From a virus, in the IMG/VR virus record IMGVR_UViG_3300010885_007853, positions 1-23,346 of that record: a stretch of 23,346 nt of DNA; one strand, 5' to 3'. Of this stretch, positions 1,930 through 23,066 are shown piece by piece. Positions within the stretch are counted from its first letter, which is position 1. Each line of letters starts with the position of its first letter. The notes under the pieces are model-generated. The model had not been told where the DNA came from and made no database searches. It worked only from the letters and a program-made list of their open reading frames with translations. Made by a program: the position numbers and the translations under genes.

Positions 1930-2712
1930 ATGCGTACACTTGTTCGCTCTGTAGGTAGGTCAGATATTGGTGGAGAACCTCTGCCCTCTGTATTCAGAGC
2001 ATTTGAAAGTAATAAAATTATTTTGCGTAGAGCAGAAGTATCTATGCTTGCTGGTACTCCTGGCGTTGGTAAGTCAACGCTTGCCTTGGCCTTAGCATTA
2101 AAGATGAAGGTGCCTAGTCTTTATATATCAGCAGATACCAATGCTCATACTATGGCTATGCGATTAGCCTCAATGATTTCAGGCAAGAATCAAACTGATG
2201 TAGAACAGTTAATGAATACTGATTATGGTTGGACCAAAGCAACTCTTGCCAAAGGTTCACACGTAGTATGGTCATTTGAATCTAGTCCTACATTGCAGGA
2301 TATTGATGAAGAAGTTCAAGCCTTTGAAGAACTATGGGGCTGTCCTCCGACTGCAATTTTTGTAGATAACTTAATGGATATTGCTACTGATGGTGGCGAA
2401 GAGTTTGCCTCAATGAGAGCAATTATGAAGGAATTAAAGTACCTTGCTCGTGCTACCAATGCAGCAATTATTATTCTTCATCATACGAGTGAGGCAGTAC
2501 AAGGAGACCCTTGTCAGCCACGCTCTGCATTACAGGGCAAAGTAGCACAATTACCTGCCCTTATCTGTACACTTGGTGTAGTGGGAACATCAATGGCTGT
2601 TGCTCCCGTGAAGAACAGATACGGAAGGGCTGATGCAAACGCTAACTTGCTAACGTGGTTAGCGTTCAATCCTGAGTATATGTTTATGGACGATATACCA
2701 GAAAATATATAA
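1930..2712 (+). CDS. RecA/DnaB-type P-loop ATPase, replication or repair
   Basis: 260 residues, ATG 1930 preceded by GGGAG. A Walker A motif GTPGVGKST is at residues 42-50, a Walker B strand AIFVDN at 142-147, and a sensor-like strand AIIILHHTSE at 179-188, in the order and spacing of the RecA/RadA/DnaB (AAA_25) ATPase core. No separate DnaB N-terminal domain or Lon domain is present, so it is a minimal single-domain ATPase. Its neighbours (RecB-like nuclease, resolvase, primase) place it in DNA replication or recombination, either as a helicase-like motor or a RecA-like strand-exchange or loading protein. The family call is firm and the exact role open. Confidence 0.85.
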   Translation: MRTLVRSVGRSDIGGEPLPSVFRAFESNKIILRRAEVSMLAGTPGVGKSTLALALALKMKVPSLYISADTNAHTMAMRLASMISGKNQTDVEQLMNTDYGWTKATLAKGSHVVWSFESSPTLQDIDEEVQAFEELWGCPPTAIFVDNLMDIATDGGEEFASMRAIMKELKYLARATNAAIIILHHTSEAVQGDPCQPRSALQGKVAQLPALICTLGVVGTSMAVAPVKNRYGRADANANLLTWLAFNPEYMFMDDIPENI

Positions 2713-2720
2713 GGAGAATG

Positions 2721-2915
2721 ATGATACAAGAAGAAAACGATATGACTCAAGAGATACGTCAACTCGTATTACTTGAATTAAATGCAGAGATACAACACTT
2801 CATTGGCAAGATTGAACAAGCAAAGATTAATGCAAAAGATGAATGGGGAGATGGACTTAATACTGGTTTAGATTGGGCTGTTCGCATTCTTAAGAAAGAT
2901 AAGAGTGCATATTAG
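2721..2915 (+). CDS. Small hypothetical helical protein
   Basis: 64 residues from ATG 2721; ATG 2718 is directly adjacent and ATG 2742 (MTQEIRQL) is a later option. AAGGAGA at 2711-2717 supports 2721 (4-nt spacer). The protein is mainly amphipathic helix and ends in a short basic patch (LKKDKSAY). Its TAG overlaps the GTG of the next gene by one base, so translation is probably coupled. No family recognised. Confidence 0.65.
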   Translation: MIQEENDMTQEIRQLVLLELNAEIQHFIGKIEQAKINAKDEWGDGLNTGLDWAVRILKKDKSAY

Positions 2916-3262
2916 TGCCATCTCAATCCCGTAAACATAGGGGATATAGAAGTCAGAAAGTAGTTGCTGAATACTTAGTGGCTAATGGATTTCCATATGC
3001 AGAATCTACTGGTGCTGGGCGCAGTGGTACAGATATAACTGGCTGTATTGGTGTTGACTGGGAGATAAAAGCACGTACTGGATTTAATCCATCTAGTGCC
3101 ATTGCACAATTAAAGGAACGTGCAAAGAATGGTGTGCTTGGTTTAGTTTGTTTAAGACTCAATGGACAGGGAGAACAAAAAATTAAAGACTGGGTTGTAG
3201 TCTTAAGACTTGAAGATGCAGTGAATCTGCTTAGAGAGGCAGGATATGGTGAGAAAAAATGA
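2915..3262 (+). CDS. PD-(D/E)XK endonuclease, Holliday-junction-resolvase-like
   Basis: 115 residues from a GTG start overlapping the preceding stop (TAGTG). The active-site pattern of archaeal-type resolvase-like nucleases is visible: RKHRGYRSQKVVAEYL (E19 as first acidic ligand), then GAGRSGTDI (D40), then WEIKAR (E50-x-K52). Length is typical for a stand-alone resolvase. It probably cuts branched DNA formed in phage replication or recombination. Located between the ATPase and the primase and overlapping the primase start by 17 nt. A generic VRR-NUC-type nuclease is the main alternative. Confidence 0.8.
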   Translation: MPSQSRKHRGYRSQKVVAEYLVANGFPYAESTGAGRSGTDITGCIGVDWEIKARTGFNPSSAIAQLKERAKNGVLGLVCLRLNGQGEQKIKDWVVVLRLEDAVNLLREAGYGEKK

Positions 3263-3626
3263 CAATGACTTACCAAGTATCAGAGAAGTACTTACACACT
3301 ACGGAGCACACATACGACAAACTCGCGGACAAGTTAATCTCAAGTGTCCATTCCACTCCGATACTCACCAGTCGGGAAGTGCTAATCTCAACAATAATAT
3401 ATTCATCTGTTTTGCCTGCGGAATGCAGGGTAACAGTTTACAAATCATTAGCAAACAAGAAGGGGTAAATCTACGTGAAGCAAAGCGTATTGCAGAAAGA
3501 GTTGTTGGGGAAAGCAACGGAAAAGTACAGGGAAAACATTTATCAGGCGGAAGTCTACCTAAAAAACAGGGGCATTCCAATAGAGATAGCACGGCTGGCG
3601 CAATTAGGCGTAGTAGAGGAGCCTGA
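3246..3626 (+). CDS. DNA primase, CHC2 zinc-finger part (split gene)
   Basis: 126 residues from ATG 3246. Residues 34-58 form the CHC2 zinc finger of DnaG-type primases (C34-x2-H37-x17-C55-x2-C58, ending FICFACGMQGN), which recognises the template start site. Up to about residue 92 the sequence reads like a primase N-domain (LREAKRIAERVVGES); beyond that it turns basic and low-complexity (GKHLSGGSLPKKQG..), while the +1 frame carries convincing primase sequence. The last 152 nt overlap the TOPRIM ORF. Either a true short zinc subunit is made alongside an internally started TOPRIM protein, or ribosomes or the assembly shift frame by +1 between about 3475 and 3540. Confidence 0.8.
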   Translation: MVRKNDNDLPSIREVLTHYGAHIRQTRGQVNLKCPFHSDTHQSGSANLNNNIFICFACGMQGNSLQIISKQEGVNLREAKRIAERVVGESNGKVQGKHLSGGSLPKKQGHSNRDSTAGAIRRSRGA

Positions 3627-4095
3627 GGTTGGACACGAAACATACATTGGCAGACTTGCTATACCGTATGTCACCAAGACTGGTGTTGTTGATTTGCGAT
3701 TTCGTTCTCTTAACCCTGCTGTTGAGCCTAAGTATATGGGGCTAACTGGTGCTGAAACCAAAATGTATAACGTACTTGATATTGAAAAAGCAAATAACTT
3801 TATTGGGGTATGTGAAGGTGAACTAGATACAATAACTATGTCAGGTTGTGTTGGCATACCTTGCATTGGTGTACCTGGTGCTAATAGTTGGAAGAAACAT
3901 TACACAAGATTGCTTGCTGACTTTGAAAGAGTATTCGTTTTCGCAGATGGAGACCAACCTGGCACTGAGTTTGCTCGTAGCCTTGCTCGTGAATTACCAG
4001 TAACCATTGTTCAACTACCTGATGGGCACGATGTTAACTCAATGTTTGTACAAGAAGGTGCGAACTATTTTCACAATAAGATAAATAGTAAATGA
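3475..4095 (+). CDS. DNA primase, TOPRIM catalytic part
   Basis: 206 residues if translation starts at GTG 3475, which has AAGGGG ending 9 nt upstream; TTG codons at 3490-3505 are alternatives. A TOPRIM domain is seen at about 109-175: GVCEGELDTI with the catalytic Glu114, then VFVFADGDQPG with the Asp pair D158/D160. Upstream (20-105) is the DnaG-like region with the NRGI, GRLAIPY and LRFRSL segments preceding TOPRIM. It makes RNA primers for phage replication, probably with the zinc-finger ORF in the -1 frame just upstream. Its stop overlaps the next ATG (ATGA). The split is discussed under findings. Confidence 0.85.
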   Translation: MKQSVLQKELLGKATEKYRENIYQAEVYLKNRGIPIEIARLAQLGVVEEPEVGHETYIGRLAIPYVTKTGVVDLRFRSLNPAVEPKYMGLTGAETKMYNVLDIEKANNFIGVCEGELDTITMSGCVGIPCIGVPGANSWKKHYTRLLADFERVFVFADGDQPGTEFARSLARELPVTIVQLPDGHDVNSMFVQEGANYFHNKINSK

Positions 4096-4463
4096 ACCTT
4101 GAAGACCAACCACCCTACAATACTTGCAATGAATGTGGGCAAGAGTTTGATAGTTCTTTTGAGTTGGTCGACCACTTGCTAGAAGATGATGAAGAGTTTG
4201 ACCCTTATCTAGTTTTACCTAGTGGATACAGGTTAATGCTTGGTTCAATGCTTAAATTTATTTATAACAATGCAGATAGTCCTGAGCAAGTTAAGTTAAT
4301 TACTCAGTCAACCTATGTAACCCTCTTTGCTTCTGAGAATGGCTTTGAACCAATAGAAGAACTCATAGAAGATATGGTGGTTAAGTCAGCATTAAAGGAT
4401 TTTGATGATAGTCTTAAGACATTATTAGAAGAGGAAAACCCTACCAATGAAAGCGGAGAGTGA
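4092..4463 (+). CDS. Acidic protein with N-terminal zinc-finger-like motif
   Basis: 123 residues; ATG 4092 overlaps the primase stop by 4 nt. Residues 11-30 (TCNECGQEFDSSFELVDHLL) look like half of a C2H2 finger, with C12-x2-C15 and H28, but the second His is replaced by an acidic run (EDDEEFD). The rest is helical and strongly acidic, especially the C-terminus (TLLEEENPTNESGE). Unknown function; co-transcription with replication genes suggests a nucleic-acid or polymerase-binding accessory. Confidence 0.7.
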   Translation: MNLEDQPPYNTCNECGQEFDSSFELVDHLLEDDEEFDPYLVLPSGYRLMLGSMLKFIYNNADSPEQVKLITQSTYVTLFASENGFEPIEELIEDMVVKSALKDFDDSLKTLLEEENPTNESGE

Positions 4464-15396: not shown

Positions 15397-15410
15397 CTAA
15401 GCGGGGGACA

Positions 15411-15953
15411 ATGACAACAATAATTGGTTTAGAACATAAAGACCGCTGCTTCATAGTTGCCGATAGCCAAACAACTGATGCTGATGGAAAAATTTATTCA
15501 CATCCAGAGGTTAAAAAGATTTCTGAAAATGGAATGTTTTTAATTGCTGGTTCAGGCGAAACATTACCCTGCGATATAGCACAACATATTTGGGAGCCAC
15601 CAACTCCCAGTAAGCAAGATAGAGAAAATTTATATCGTTTTATGATTGTAAAGGCTATGCCATCTCTGCGTAAATGTATGACAGATAATGGTTATAACTT
15701 TGATGAAGATACAAAAGAAACTCGCTTTCAATTTATTATGGCTGTTGGTGGAGAAATCTTTGATGTTGACCAAGAGTTATCAATAAGTAAATCTGCAGAT
15801 GGAGTATATGCTGCAGGCTCAGGCGCACCATATGCGCTAGGTGCTTTATATGCTGGAGCAGATGCACACGAAGCAATGGAGATTGCATCTAAACTTACTG
15901 CATTTACAGCAGGACCATATATATCAAAAGAACAACCTAAAAAAATTAAGTAG
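15411..15953 (+). CDS. Proteasome/HslV-like Ntn-hydrolase, probable head maturation protease
   Basis: 180 residues, ATG 15411 with GCGGGGG upstream. After removal of Met1 the chain starts with Thr-Thr (TTIIGLEHKDRCFIVADS), like HslV and proteasome beta subunits. D18 in VADSQTT takes the place of Asp17, V34-K35-K36-I matches the lysine motif (Lys33), and AGSGE (46-50) fits the conserved glycine turn. The later AAGSGAPYALGALYAGADAHEAM is the usual GSGxxxAxGAL helix. There are two extra residues between Asp17 and Lys33. It lies between portal and putative scaffold/internal proteins, where a prohead protease is expected; none of the common ClpP- or herpes-type proteases was seen. Confidence 0.8.
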   Translation: MTTIIGLEHKDRCFIVADSQTTDADGKIYSHPEVKKISENGMFLIAGSGETLPCDIAQHIWEPPTPSKQDRENLYRFMIVKAMPSLRKCMTDNGYNFDEDTKETRFQFIMAVGGEIFDVDQELSISKSADGVYAAGSGAPYALGALYAGADAHEAMEIASKLTAFTAGPYISKEQPKKIK

Positions 15954-15961
15954 GAGGCGTA

Positions 15962-16420
15962 GTGGCTGGCAACGAAAACAGTGGCGGTAATAGACCAACT
16001 GCACCTCAAAATAATACTGGCGTATCAGCAACAGGCGGTGCTGGTAGCAAAGATGGTCAACCAAATATGTACATTCCAGATATGAAAAGTTTAGGTTCTA
16101 CTGGAGTAGAAACTATGGCACAACAAGGTGGAGCAAAATTGGCTAAAGCAGAAGGAATACCAGCATTTGATATGAGTAGTATTAAAACTTTACTGGATGA
16201 TACCCAACGTCCATTAGAGCCACAATCTACTGGCGTAAACTTTGGTCGTGGAGCAGGAGAAGGCGTATTACCAGCCTCACTTCGTAGCGACGAAAGATTA
16301 ATTGAAAACAAAGAAATTATTAATAAGTATATGCCATCTTTAGTGGCTGCTGCTCAAGCCCCAGATGCGCCAGATTCATACAAACAATTTTTAAGTTTTG
16401 TTATAAAAGAGATGCAATGA
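15962..16420 (+). CDS. Hypothetical virion-module protein
   Basis: 152 residues from GTG 15962, with a strong AGGAGG upstream. The first 35 residues are Gly/Asn/Ser/Thr-rich and disordered; the rest has short helices, with a defined C-terminal helical part (DERLIENKEIINKYM, then PDSYKQFLSFVIKEM). Could be a scaffold-like or adaptor protein, based only on position after the protease. No family recognised. Overlaps the next start (ATGA). Confidence 0.7.
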   Translation: MAGNENSGGNRPTAPQNNTGVSATGGAGSKDGQPNMYIPDMKSLGSTGVETMAQQGGAKLAKAEGIPAFDMSSIKTLLDDTQRPLEPQSTGVNFGRGAGEGVLPASLRSDERLIENKEIINKYMPSLVAAAQAPDAPDSYKQFLSFVIKEMQ

Positions 16421-16611
16421 GTGCTTTTGCTCCTGGCAGTTTATATGACAATATTGATAAGTTTGCAAATTCTTTAGGCTATCAAAACCTAGGAATTATT
16501 ATGAAATTATCAGTAGTCCCTTGGGACTCAGTAGATGATAGGGACGCTTTTATTGAAGCAATTACACAAGAACAACCACAAGGCAGTGCACCTAGTCGTA
16601 AAAGAATTTAA
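16417..16611 (+). CDS. Hypothetical small protein
   Basis: 64 residues; ATG 16417 overlaps the previous stop. Mostly helical with a polar C-terminal tail (QEQPQGSAPSRKRI). No motif recognised; translationally coupled to its upstream neighbour and followed by the giant gene after 9 nt. Confidence 0.65.
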   Translation: MSAFAPGSLYDNIDKFANSLGYQNLGIIMKLSVVPWDSVDDRDAFIEAITQEQPQGSAPSRKRI

Positions 16612-19600: not shown

Positions 19601-22191
19601 CAAAGGCTAAAGGTTCCATACATACTCTAGCCCCAGAGGCTAAAGAAATTCTTGCTGCCAATAAAGAAATAGCAAATCAATATAAAGTTATTGATGATAT
19701 TCTTACTGGACTAGGCGATACAAGAAAAGCACAGGCTGATGTATACCTAAAAGATGCTGCTTATAAGAAACGTTATTATGGAAAACCACAACAATATATA
19801 GAAGTTGAAGGCAAGTGGATTCCAGCAGAGTCTCTATTTGCAGAAAATAAATTTGGTACTGCATTCAGCGAAGAGTTTGGAAACTCTCGCACCGTAGCAG
19901 CAAATTACTTAGGTCAAATTGGAATTGGGGTTCGTTCAAACCTTACGCTTCGCAGAGGACCATCTACCGTAACCTTTGTAAATGACCCAATTTATTTTGA
20001 TGAATTAGCATATTTTGCTAATCGTTCACTTCGTGGTGATAAGTTAGTAAATAAAATTCTTGCTGGTCAAGTGGAAAAAGAATTAATTGAATGGGGCTTA
20101 AGCAAAGAAGGTCAAGTCTATTTCCAACAATTTGGAGATGTAACTCCTTCAGTTATTGTAGAAACAGTAAGAGATAGAGTAGGCTTTGTAAATAGATATT
20201 TACCAAATGCTGAGGCACGAGCATTGGTACTTTCAAAGGAAGTTAACTCTGCTGAGTTGGCTCAAATTTTAAGCAAAGACTTAAATAGATTAAGTCCAAT
20301 TCATCCATTAGATTTTAATATTCACGTAGCATCTGAGTTTGGATATAGAACCTTAGACAAGATTGAGAGTGCTATTAATAAAGGTGCTTCTCGTATTTTC
20401 AGTTTACTGACTCGTCCAGAGAATCCAATACGTTGGGCGTCTGGCGATAGATTTTTTGCAGACAGTCTTGCTAGAAAAGGAAACGAATTAACTCAGCAAG
20501 GTTTTACTTTTATAAATAAAGATGGCACTTTTAATTTTGATAAATTAGAAGTTTTACGTTCTGCTGCTAGGCGAGAAGCATTAGAAATGAATGAGAAAAC
20601 ATTCTATACAATTCGTAGGCAGAACAGAGCATTATATGCTGCTAGATTAGCAACTGCTTTCCCTACTGCATCTTTAAATGCTTTCTATCGTTATGGACGT
20701 TTTGCCCTAAAGAATCCAGAACGTGTTGGTCAATTCTTATATAATTACCAGTCAGCGTTTAGGTCATTTGGTGTAGACCAATATGGAAATCCTACAGATG
20801 ACCCAATGAAGGCAACTCATTTAGTTGTACCAGGAACAAAAGAAATGGGATTTTTTGGCGGCAAAGGTGTTAGATTAAATGCTCGCTCAATAGGATTCTT
20901 ACTTAACTATCCATCTCCATCTATATTTTCTAGTGTTGCTGTTGCTGAAATTTACAAACGCAAACCATCAACAGAAGATTTAATGAAGAGTTGGTTAGGT
21001 TCTAACTACGATGTTTTATTTCCATATGGTCCACAAACCGACTGGAAATCTTCATTAATTCCAAGATGGGCAAAAGACGCTTGGTTCTACTTTAATGGTC
21101 CAGATGGAAATGCAGATTTCTTAAACTCTTGGAAAGATGTTCATAATTACTATATGACTTTAGATGACCTAGGTATTATGAAATATCCTGGTGACGAAGT
21201 AGTGTATCGTGATACTAGAAAGAATTTTGCGGTTAAGGCTAACTGGGCATTTGGAAACATCTTTGGTGTTCCAGCAAAAGTTGACACTAACCCGATGGCT
21301 TTGTACGAAGAGGCATATAATTTGCTTGTTAATAAGTACAGAGTAATTGCTAATAACGAGAAACTTGCAAGAGAACTTGCAGGTGCTGAGTTGACCGCTA
21401 AGTTAGGTCCAAACTTCCCACTTGATAGAGTAAGTTTTAAGGGTTCTTCAGCGAACGCTTATATTCAACCTAATTATGAATCTTATAAGCGTGTATTTGA
21501 AGACTCAACAGGACTTGCTGAAACTCTAGCAAGACAAAACCCAGAATTAGTTGGATTACTAGCCCTTGATGTTGACTCTAGCAAGGAAGAGTTTAATCTT
21601 TCTATCTTTAAAATACTTAATGACCCTAAAACTAAACTTCCAAATGGAAGTATATTAAATGACATTAAGTTAACTCCCAAGCAAGAAGAAGAACGCAGGC
21701 AAATCAATCGTGGCTGGGCTTTATATAATCAGTTAACTGATACACTAGAGGCCGAAGCAGCAAAAATTCCTGGTAAGACACTTCGTTCACGTCCAGACTT
21801 ACTAGAAGCACGACGCATTGTTGCTGGAGATTTAATTAGAAAGCAAAGTGAGTCTTGGTGGAAAGAATACAATGACCCACAACGTGGAGACAAATCTTTC
21901 CGTTATGCTTATGCATTAAACACTGTCATAAATAATGATGAGTGGATGAATAAATATGGCAATACAAAACTATGGAATGATGTCAAAGAGTTTATGACTA
22001 TCAGAAACACTGTAGTTGAAGTATACAAGGGTATGCCAGATAGAAGCGTTCAGAAATCTAGGGTAAAGAAAAACTATATAGCATTTATTGATGAGCGTAT
22101 GAAGACTTGGCACCCAAAATTACAAGAGTTAATTAACCGTAATTTTGAAGAAGACAATATGAAAGATGCTACTTTGAGAGAAGGTAAATAA
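16621..22191 (+). CDS. Giant 1856-residue virion-associated protein with ParB-like domain
   Basis: ATG 16621 follows AAGGAGATAT. The chain is long and largely helical. At about 830-935 lies a ParB/sulfiredoxin-like segment: FVDSKYLAKMPGN, later NPLVVIYDNETG, then GEGNHRLQAA (890-899), the G-x-x-x-H-R motif of ParB N-domains. A region around 1390-1620 is rich in aromatic, membrane-interacting-like stretches (AFPTASLNAFYRYGRFAL, SIGFLLNYPSPSIFSSVAVA). The length and domain embedding recall phage polyvalent proteins, which are packaged and injected with the DNA; T7 gp16-type internal proteins are another comparison. Role inferred from size, domain and position only. Confidence 0.75.
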   Translation: MSLWNSFLDNIAKPVGGFIGNTAEYLAGTFTGNFGSPSQYISNVATSAGVEIGTSKQLAALGLEQEAQNIIKENLKYSVKNQSVSNDLVLKAGVKLHDEVISPYITRPISTGALLTDFDSPLYSKDEFEKGFQLADITEAYNRSAEVSLGQALTKSDLTPIKPIANVVFDKGGIDLDEVDLWNDDDIQRAFVDNTVGRWFTGPVDFLASNVAIAKVFGLAAKTGNLGARKAGLATRGRNLSQVEKDIDDGILFTQSDTASGRQTSIGSDVNKLASTSNIDEVSTILTKYTNNENLFGPIQRATDPNTVKDLILADKGYLPALDRLSKNAPADLYEIADMNSMMRAKRVEDGKPLEFSDESWTRLNAAFDDAINRVPEYKFIKDSLLDPGTGTPYKFARDYVPMEPVLGKSALIKTRDKLQNLKASAITRDFTRLGGIEERILGGSLNGPITKIVRFVGTEKPLGFVTYSGSRPLDGIRELDAFFDDIDLFTNGANLINITPKTKITAGEFRTQVKSKFANAQTNIERNNVLDELEDQIGLILAYSKGFFDTRTIRTFTQEIKNQVFGATNSIAQKGYAMDAQGQRVITDAQTQRQLIESRRMAPWGLVERELNSAIKKRKFETKVYQANDALKFVYETFNKYWTIDVLARPLYIPKQSLFEPILSATLAHGNKFITDNIPNMSKNFNENNKNRALGKANRVLNKKQFAAVDKAVTDMSKQLDEAIDSLDRLTAEAALYLEPEKYAVKLSPKTIRDNKALIMKDLKAASKLVDDIEFELRDAVRPFGEQSAVPTIASLERRVNFLESLSGTSTKKTKLFPNIKEYTDGGKGGLPETRSVVGFVDSKYLAKMPGNPVDAELATSYREIFRTGKLENPLVVIYDNETGLAYLGEGNHRLQAALAENVPYLPVRITRGSAREMKNRVEKGLPVLQVKNDKTLPFTTGGPKGPVEYMPTDVHPSFVFDKKFLVKEDAIAQTSPTVRYAADLANAKAAITKAKGSIHTLAPEAKEILAANKEIANQYKVIDDILTGLGDTRKAQADVYLKDAAYKKRYYGKPQQYIEVEGKWIPAESLFAENKFGTAFSEEFGNSRTVAANYLGQIGIGVRSNLTLRRGPSTVTFVNDPIYFDELAYFANRSLRGDKLVNKILAGQVEKELIEWGLSKEGQVYFQQFGDVTPSVIVETVRDRVGFVNRYLPNAEARALVLSKEVNSAELAQILSKDLNRLSPIHPLDFNIHVASEFGYRTLDKIESAINKGASRIFSLLTRPENPIRWASGDRFFADSLARKGNELTQQGFTFINKDGTFNFDKLEVLRSAARREALEMNEKTFYTIRRQNRALYAARLATAFPTASLNAFYRYGRFALKNPERVGQFLYNYQSAFRSFGVDQYGNPTDDPMKATHLVVPGTKEMGFFGGKGVRLNARSIGFLLNYPSPSIFSSVAVAEIYKRKPSTEDLMKSWLGSNYDVLFPYGPQTDWKSSLIPRWAKDAWFYFNGPDGNADFLNSWKDVHNYYMTLDDLGIMKYPGDEVVYRDTRKNFAVKANWAFGNIFGVPAKVDTNPMALYEEAYNLLVNKYRVIANNEKLARELAGAELTAKLGPNFPLDRVSFKGSSANAYIQPNYESYKRVFEDSTGLAETLARQNPELVGLLALDVDSSKEEFNLSIFKILNDPKTKLPNGSILNDIKLTPKQEEERRQINRGWALYNQLTDTLEAEAAKIPGKTLRSRPDLLEARRIVAGDLIRKQSESWWKEYNDPQRGDKSFRYAYALNTVINNDEWMNKYGNTKLWNDVKEFMTIRNTVVEVYKGMPDRSVQKSRVKKNYIAFIDERMKTWHPKLQELINRNFEEDNMKDATLREGK

Positions 22192-23066
22192 TGGATGAGA
22201 AAGCCTTAGCAGCAGCCGTTGCTGCAGCACTTGCTGCGGTTGGTTTAGGCGGCGGCGACTCTGGTAAAACAATCTCTTCTGAAGCCATTAAACTTACTCC
22301 AATAGGAGCAAAGCAATTACTTGAAAGCATTGCTACCGATATTCAATTTACTGGCAAGTTCAGTAAAGAAGATGTTGCAGCATTTGTATCTGCTTATAAT
22401 CAAAAGGCTAATGAGCAGTTAGATACAGTAGTCCGTGAGGCTAAAGAAACCATCAAGACTGGTAAGACTGCTGATGTTTCTGAGACTGTTAAGAATATTA
22501 TCACAACAAAGTATCCATCTTTTTTTGACCCAAAGACATTCACTAGAGACTTTATCTGGTCAAAGGTAAACTTTGCTGATGAGAAGGCGCTAGGAGCCAA
22601 GGCACTAGATGCCCTTACTGAGGCTCGTAGCATTGCCAAAGCATTTAACTTAAGTACAGTTTCTGAGGTAGAGATTCAAAATGCTGCCAAACAAATTGCT
22701 AGTGGCAAGATTTCTGCAAGTGATTATAAGACCCAATTAGCAACCAAGGCTGCGGTTGAATATCCACAATATGCTGACCGTCTTAAGACAACACCTAATG
22801 CAACTGTTAGAGATTTAGTTAATCCAGTATTAAAAGTGATTGCTGATGCTTGGGAAGTAAGCGTAGATTCTCTTGACTTGAAAGACCCATTTATTGATAA
22901 GTTAATTAGACCAGATGGGGTTATTGGAAAACTACCACCAGCATCTGTTGGCGAAGCAATGAATGCGGCAATGGCACATCCCAATAGAGATAAAACAAAA
23001 GGTTCAATTCAAGATGCAACCACAGCGGCTACTCAGTTCGCTAGAGCGTTAGGATTTGGTGCATAA
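22191..23066 (+). CDS. Hypothetical helical virion-module protein
   Basis: 291 residues; ATG 22191 overlaps the giant gene's stop (TAATG). Alanine-rich N-terminus (MDEKALAAAVAAALAAVGLGGG), then a chain of helices without cysteines or known motifs. Compatible with an internal head or ejection protein working with the giant protein. A palindrome copy lies at 22780-22789 in the coding sequence. No family recognised. Confidence 0.7.
   Translation: MDEKALAAAVAAALAAVGLGGGDSGKTISSEAIKLTPIGAKQLLESIATDIQFTGKFSKEDVAAFVSAYNQKANEQLDTVVREAKETIKTGKTADVSETVKNIITTKYPSFFDPKTFTRDFIWSKVNFADEKALGAKALDALTEARSIAKAFNLSTVSEVEIQNAAKQIASGKISASDYKTQLATKAAVEYPQYADRLKTTPNATVRDLVNPVLKVIADAWEVSVDSLDLKDPFIDKLIRPDGVIGKLPPASVGEAMNAAMAHPNRDKTKGSIQDATTAATQFARALGFGA

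Follow-up and report, generated by a model that had tools for sequence, protein, structure and literature searches.

Our analysis indicated that actinophages of a widespread freshwater lineage each retain a single Ntn hydrolase gene, which in most cases occupies either of two defined places. The encoded enzyme, whose gene lies beside the portal gene in the window, has in our judgment a somewhat better than even chance of being a cytoplasmic, infection-phase threonine peptidase that acts on proteins of the host (or on early proteins of the phage) rather than a dedicated head maturation protease. The window, meaning the whole stretch of 23,346 nucleotides analyzed (IMG/VR record IMGVR_UViG_3300010885_007853), is a 23-kb virus record and probably a fragment. 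The case carries a warning that position alone is no ground for naming a protease a prohead protease.

A predicted threonine hydrolase with an intact active site

The genes around the hydrolase followed one another in one direction, in the order terminase, portal, Ntn hydrolase, 152-aa protein, 64-aa ORF, 1,856-aa giant protein, and 291-aa protein (Table 1). The Ntn ORF started with ATG, ended with TAG, and encoded a protein with the N-terminus MTTIIGLEHKDRCFIVADSQ; the strand opposite was filled with stop codons. The hydrolase had originally been placed directly after the portal gene, and this held: 14 bases separated the portal stop from the Ntn start (8 bases separated the Ntn end from the next gene), and the Ntn gene adjoined the portal gene in 156/157 close loci with more than 300 bases of upstream sequence.

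Table 1. Features of the window and their positions
Feature	Coordinates	Strand	Remarks
229-aa ORF	10396-11085	-	strong match to PHROG 6361 (function unassigned); weak SprT-like metallopeptidase match, E 0.00086, below the cut-off
Terminase large subunit, 622 aa	11751..13619	+	PHROG 38, E 1e-63
Portal protein, 605 aa	13579..15396	+	PHROG 104, E 3.2e-30; directly upstream of the Ntn gene
Candidate ribosome-binding site of the Ntn gene	15403..15407	+	G-rich ggggg, letters read directly; putative role
Ntn hydrolase, HslV/BPH-like, 180 aa	15411..15953	+	PHROG 1040; predicted nucleophile Thr2 after Met removal, Asp18, Lys36
152-aa protein	15962..16420	+	PHROG 8200, no function assigned; same family at the same place in Manuel (gp08)
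64-aa ORF	16417..16611	+	weak PHROG match only
Giant protein, 1,856 aa	16621..22191	+	fast-evolving; relative of Manuel gp10 (PHROG 10618)
291-aa protein	22191..23066	+	PHROG 6654, common to Manuel gp12/gp13

The original prediction of a proteasome/HslV-type hydrolase was borne out by both profile and fold. The window protein matched PHROG 1040, labeled "peptidase HslV family" (E 3.8e-29), and a profile of 24 relatives retrieved, among solved structures, BPH (1.1e-10) and HslV (1.5e-10), followed by proteasome beta chains. With the Pfam Proteasome family (PF00227), the window protein remained below threshold (17.4 bits; cut-off, 22.4), whereas the relative in isolate E7 exceeded this gathering cut-off with 25.5 bits; the NCBIfam HslV equivalog scores of the window protein lay below both cut-offs (17.2 versus 137 bits and 15.5 versus 157.75). 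An AlphaFold model built from 22 aligned relatives (mean pLDDT, 92.6; pTM, 0.88) exhibited the four-layer Ntn fold, with helices 51-60 and 74-92 present in the 180-residue chain. Comparison of a predicted structure with HslV and proteasome beta, the check proposed at the outset, gave matches to both: Foldseek ranked BPH first (E 1.2e-11), HslV next, and then proteasome beta, and VIA-align returned Z-scores of 18.3 for BPH (RMSD, 3.1; 167 residues), 17.6 for HslV, and 17.2 for Anbu, although the scores of BPH, HslV, Anbu, and proteasome beta were only about 1 to 2 apart. The top match among predicted viral structures was an HslV-like protein of an uncultured phage. Judged from its sequence and predicted structure, the window protein belongs to the HslV/BPH group of Ntn hydrolases and retains the complete Thr-Asp-Lys site.

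Met1-Thr2-Thr3 and Asp18 were in place as first described, and the VKK motif was also present; only its second lysine (K36) was conserved, whereas K35 varied. Across 100 distinct full-length close relatives (101 distinct sequences, one of them cut), Thr2, Thr3, Asp18, Lys36, and Gly49 were invariant and residue 35 was variable, and in a wider set D18, K36, G136, and G138 were identical in 281/281 distinct full-length relatives. Thr2 was invariant among Ntn sequences with an intact start, partly by construction, since Thr2 belonged to the start pattern of the search; 11 profile matches without a standard start were left out of this comparison and of the survey given below. Seven of them, Ntn genes of replication modules (L272-L278), seem to begin with I-T-T, as if from an ATT, ATC, or ATA codon, and the remainder are truncated or fused. 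The corresponding mature numbering in Fuchs et al. 2021 (PMC8665760) is Thr1, Asp17, and Lys33.

No propeptide was found beyond Met1, and the median dN/dS of window-class Ntn genes (0.067; 792 pairs) indicated purifying selection. Taken together, the intact Thr-Asp-Lys site, this constraint, and the Ntn-like model suggest that the protein is very probably an active enzyme, in keeping with the active threonine protease expected from the start.

The capture of the gene from an actinobacterial 20S proteasome, which had been raised as a possibility, was unsupported, as both profile and fold were nearer to BPH and HslV than to proteasome beta. A scan of genome contigs with the family seed A5 produced 12 pattern matches and 0 confirmed relatives, so that no cellular relative was confirmed, and a WhiB scan aimed at host genomes gave no matches.

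Carriers and locations of the gene

The nearest named relatives of the window were OX376640 and OX376641, the Planktophila phages LanE43AprE7 (E7) and LanE43AprF5 (F5), which were isolated on "Ca. Planktophila" (PMC10202952). By this kinship, the window phage most likely infects a freshwater actinobacterium. In both isolates, the Ntn gene adjoined the portal gene and its product was 40% identical to the window protein, belonging to class C versus class A for the window. The order in E7 was that of the window (terminase, portal, Ntn, PHROG 8200, giant protein), and the giant protein was followed by two proteins, a scaffold-like protein, and an N4-type major capsid protein. The main text of the paper on these isolates (PMC10202952) names no protease. 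Further relatives were present in Microbacterium, Moorella, Xanthomonas, and other phages. The Ntn relatives of DSL-LC01, D'Alembert, and Arthrobacter phage Pitbull were located away from the head genes, and each of these three phages also has a separate annotated head maturation protease; that of AAS21 adjoined nucleotide-metabolism genes.

All scans together yielded 418 Ntn ORFs, of which 298 were portal-adjacent, 107 lay among replication genes, 11 were elsewhere, and 2 were undecided, a split that depends on the protein seeds used and is no census; duplicates (L001, L085, L086, L089-L101, and L186) were dropped from this survey. Exactly one Ntn match was found in each of 47 distinct matching records, and this single copy in every record suggests that both places serve the same role. 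Within the sister aquatic phages G030-G033, the gene was surrounded by RecB-like, DnaB, Holliday-junction resolvase, and primase-like genes, in some cases with a WhiB-like gene, as named by resemblance and by profile matches of the E7 homologues. A third location is perhaps represented by L172 (1064-1606), where a window-class Ntn gene had no portal gene beside it and a CHAP-like neighbor, as read from the sequence.

Among 16 records picked for the lack of an Ntn gene at the portal, 4 (G030-G033) carried it elsewhere and 12 had none. Of these 12, 8 were fragments of 13-27 kb, and the other 4 were contigs of 42-47 kb that grouped with the Streptomyces phages in the portal tree. Conversely, 13 of 15 records picked by their capsid protein had one Ntn gene, portal-adjacent in 13/13 (derived aquatic clade); of the other two, G047 had a portal gene and no Ntn gene, and G043, a fragment, lacked even the portal gene. 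The slot was also without an Ntn gene in L238, L239, and L257, whose contigs are short.

The head module with and without the enzyme

Searches with the portal and capsid proteins led to Streptomyces podophages of the Beephvirinae, and the window portal was 41% identical to that of Manuel in an alignment with Beephvirinae portals. Manuel, FlowerPower, JXY1, and Abafar had the terminase, portal, giant, scaffold-like, and N4-type capsid genes in the same order, and PHROGs 8200, 10618, 6654, 8424, 7813, and 1357 were common to Manuel and the Ntn-carrying phages. Nevertheless, no Ntn hydrolase match with E values up to 10 was obtained in any of these four whole genomes (4/4), and none (0/4) of the 42-47 kb contigs on the Beephvirinae side of the portal tree carried the gene. 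Where Ntn was absent, the slot between the portal and PHROG 8200 genes was mostly taken by short ORFs, 42 to 89 aa in length. No prohead protease was recognized among the head-module proteins of Manuel that were tested (10 in one search and 9 in another), and the sole peptidase was of the cell-wall type (NlpC/P60). The Abafar paper (PMC11536984) reports icosahedral heads by TEM.

The capsid protein began at the same conserved residues in Manuel, E7, and the aquatic record without Ntn (G047), and these collinear N-termini indicate that the capsid carries no additional N-terminal domain that a protease could take off; the scaffold-like protein was encoded by its own gene. The E7 capsid protein (L087 17567-18763) carried an insertion of about 80 residues that was absent from Beephvirinae capsid proteins.

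The original prediction had assigned the enzyme to the prohead-protease slot, noting that no other protease was seen there. The latter observation stood: the HK97-type prohead protease (Peptidase_S78) was found in 0/17 related long records, and no other protease was recognized among the tested E7 head-module proteins. The assignment itself was not supported and was rejected as the main reading. The gene does lie within the head module by its portal adjacency, yet G030-G033 have it in the replication module; the module is complete without it in 4/4 Beephvirinae, and so does not need it; and it is not inherited together with the capsid, since capsid proteins 91-95% identical occurred with class B versus class C Ntn proteins. 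The collinear capsids and the separate head proteases of more distant carriers were further grounds for this rejection.

Exchange of Ntn classes at the portal

The Ntn and portal trees were built by a quick maximum-likelihood method, and SH-aLRT was their sole measure of support. In the Ntn tree, which omits the 2 rows of undecided location and rows shorter than 150 aa, the portal-adjacent genes formed several distinct classes interspersed with classes from the replication module. The portal tree (64 representatives; 10/299 portals with too little downstream sequence were excluded) revealed at least 16 class changes at the slot, 3 of which were presence/absence changes and one of which is doubtful, because the row scored as having none (L358) holds a broken or fused Ntn frame. 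In this locus (2083-4275), the portal reads into an Ntn protein lacking its first 17 residues, through either a deletion fusion or an assembly error.

Exchange was also evident between close relatives. In 22 disjoint locus pairs, the portals were at least 88% identical and the Ntn class differed; phages exchanging Ntn subfamilies in place had portal identities of 88-94%. Of the 22 pairs, 14 were listed; in these, the Ntn proteins were 34 to 48% identical, and upstream nucleotide homology ended no more than 37 bases from the start codon of Ntn in 10/14 and 111 to 145 bases ahead of it in 4/14. No homology block longer than 80 bases was detected within the Ntn gene of these listed pairs, and homology resumed downstream in 12/14.

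The 152-aa neighbor was equally similar in class-discordant and class-concordant pairs of similar portal identity, with no link between its identity and the Ntn class, indicating that Ntn changes on its own. Comparisons of giant-protein N-termini at high portal identity covered just 5 and 4 class-discordant pairs. E7, with a class C Ntn, and G042, with class B, had capsid proteins that were 95% identical, and further class-discordant capsid pairs comprised five at 88-93% identity and one at 85%; the class E label of G048 and G050 reflects only the closest among six seeds, at 35-36% identity, and probably stands for a further class. One would expect a head protease that cuts at specific sites to remain linked to its substrate, and here the Ntn class was exchanged independently of portal and capsid.

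The surroundings of the slot were themselves variable. An 8-kb island, described in PMC10202952 and wholly different between E7 and F5, adjoined the Ntn slot, and the hypervariable giant protein (including its relatives) fell within it: the N-terminal 300 residues were about 27% identical in same-class phages with portals 92-95% and Ntn proteins 94% identical. A gene of 84-90 aa (e.g., L087 8033-8284) came next after Ntn in many loci of classes B and C and in few of class A (45/59 and 24/54 for classes B and C, and 16/108 for class A, among loci in which the next gene was found).

Likely function and alternatives

We favor, by a modest degree of belief, a self-contained, phage-encoded threonine peptidase of the HslV/BPH group that works during infection. 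Met1 would be removed by the host methionine aminopeptidase, and the subunits would assemble into a ring as in BPH. Once the actinobacterium is infected, the mature enzyme would act in its cytoplasm on peptides, on unfolded proteins, or on one chosen protein, either alone or together with an unfoldase of the host. By its position next to the portal gene, the Ntn gene of the window lineage is part of a presumed late operon, at the edge of a recombination-prone island, and is exchanged there as an allelic cassette. Counting against an infection-phase role are the portal adjacency in 13/13 of the capsid-picked carriers and the failure to recognize an alternative head protease. The portal-side, co-directional, and tightly spaced arrangement fits late expression and leaves room for a role in the virion or head.

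Exchange of intact, diverged alleles at one place resembles, by analogy, the behavior of genes in host conflict. It is conceivable, and we hold this tentatively, that the gene is an exchangeable "proteasome cassette" whose enzyme is aimed at a variable host target and is under arms-race selection, the targets being a defense protein, a regulator, or a superinfecting phage. If true, the cassette would represent a proteasome-type phage weapon and no structural enzyme. Since the slot borders the 8-kb E7/F5 island, recombination alone could also produce frequent exchanges.

A rather unlikely alternative is that an unfoldase of the host (HslU/ClpX/Mpa type) uses the protein as a substitute or additional core, so that regulated proteolysis in the host is redirected. 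The predicted fold is HslV-like, and an HslU/ClpX-type AAA_2 unfoldase gene was found in 0/17 related records, so any unfoldase must be that of the host; the nearest fold, however, is that of BPH. PF00004 matches occurred in 14/17 records, within the DnaB-like helicase ORF in E7 and in ORFs of similar length elsewhere.

A head maturation protease, as first proposed, that cleaves the capsid, scaffold, or giant protein at assembly appears distinctly unlikely. The near-constant portal adjacency in close loci and the empty search for Peptidase_S78 or another head-module protease speak for it. Nonetheless, the head module of Beephvirinae is complete without Ntn (with icosahedral heads in Abafar, according to PMC11536984), capsid N-termini are collinear with and without the enzyme, capsid proteins 91-95% identical are paired with different Ntn classes, sister aquatic phages keep the gene in the replication module, and DSL-LC01, D'Alembert, and Pitbull each combine a relative with a head protease of its own kind.

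It is still less probable that the protein is a non-degradative Ntn enzyme, such as a ligase, an amidase, or a connectase-like processing enzyme with a single target. Connectase, a ligase, belongs to the same superfamily, as stated in Fuchs et al. 2021 (PMC8665760), and an invariant catalytic core within an otherwise variable protein would suit such an enzyme, but the model had no evident connectase-type helical insertion and the closest folds were those of degradative proteases. We consider it highly improbable that movement and exchange merely reflect a recombination hot spot with little benefit from the gene: the position at the edge of the E7/F5 island and the slots without Ntn in L238, L257, and G047 would agree with this, but the low dN/dS, the invariant catalytic residues, and the one copy kept wherever it is located speak against it.

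The infection-phase peptidase that we favor can be approached in cultured members of the lineage, as E7 and F5 make the role of a phage proteasome-like protease directly testable.

Comparison with known systems

Phage proteasome homologues have already been published, as documented in Fuchs et al. 2021 (PMC8665760), which describes PPH and AAH as proteasome-like homologues in Caudovirales that belong to group I and are related to HslV and BPH. Our searches of open-licence papers found none on the portal-side position, the relocation, or the in-place exchange of Ntn.

The cellular relatives provide the structural frame. BPH (5ovs/5ovt/5ovu), the proteasome homologue of beta-proteobacteria, is the nearest solved fold and shares the N-terminal threonine nucleophile, but it is a cellular protein with 25% identity to the window protein. 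HslV (ClpQ) has a compact subunit with the same catalytic residues, and HslV of E. coli also starts with MTT; the window protein nevertheless lies far under the HslV equivalog cut-offs, and the phage genomes have no HslU-type gene.

Among phages, members of PHROG 1040 are the same family by profile, with an intact Thr/Asp/Lys site, and the PHROG is filed under "other" and not under head and packaging; several of its members, among them those of DSL-LC01, D'Alembert, AAS21, and Pitbull, are found at a distance from the head genes, unlike that of the window. E7 and F5 share the portal-side Ntn gene, E7 also sharing the gene order, and differ in the class of the enzyme (C versus A). The Beephvirinae have the head genes and order of the window lineage and lack Ntn in 4/4 genomes. 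According to the PPH/AAH paper (PMC8665760), PPH has about 140 residues and lacks the second helix H2, whereas the window protein has 180 residues and helices 51-60 and 74-92 in its model; of the two differences, that in length is the firmer. AAH is said in that paper (PMC8665760) to have no known actinobacteria-specific phage carrier; should the family prove to be AAH, window-type phages would fill that gap. Finally, Fuchs et al. 2021 (PMC8665760) reports no genomic context hinting at the function of the phage proteasome homologues; the context there is uninformative, whereas the context described here is both specific and shifting.
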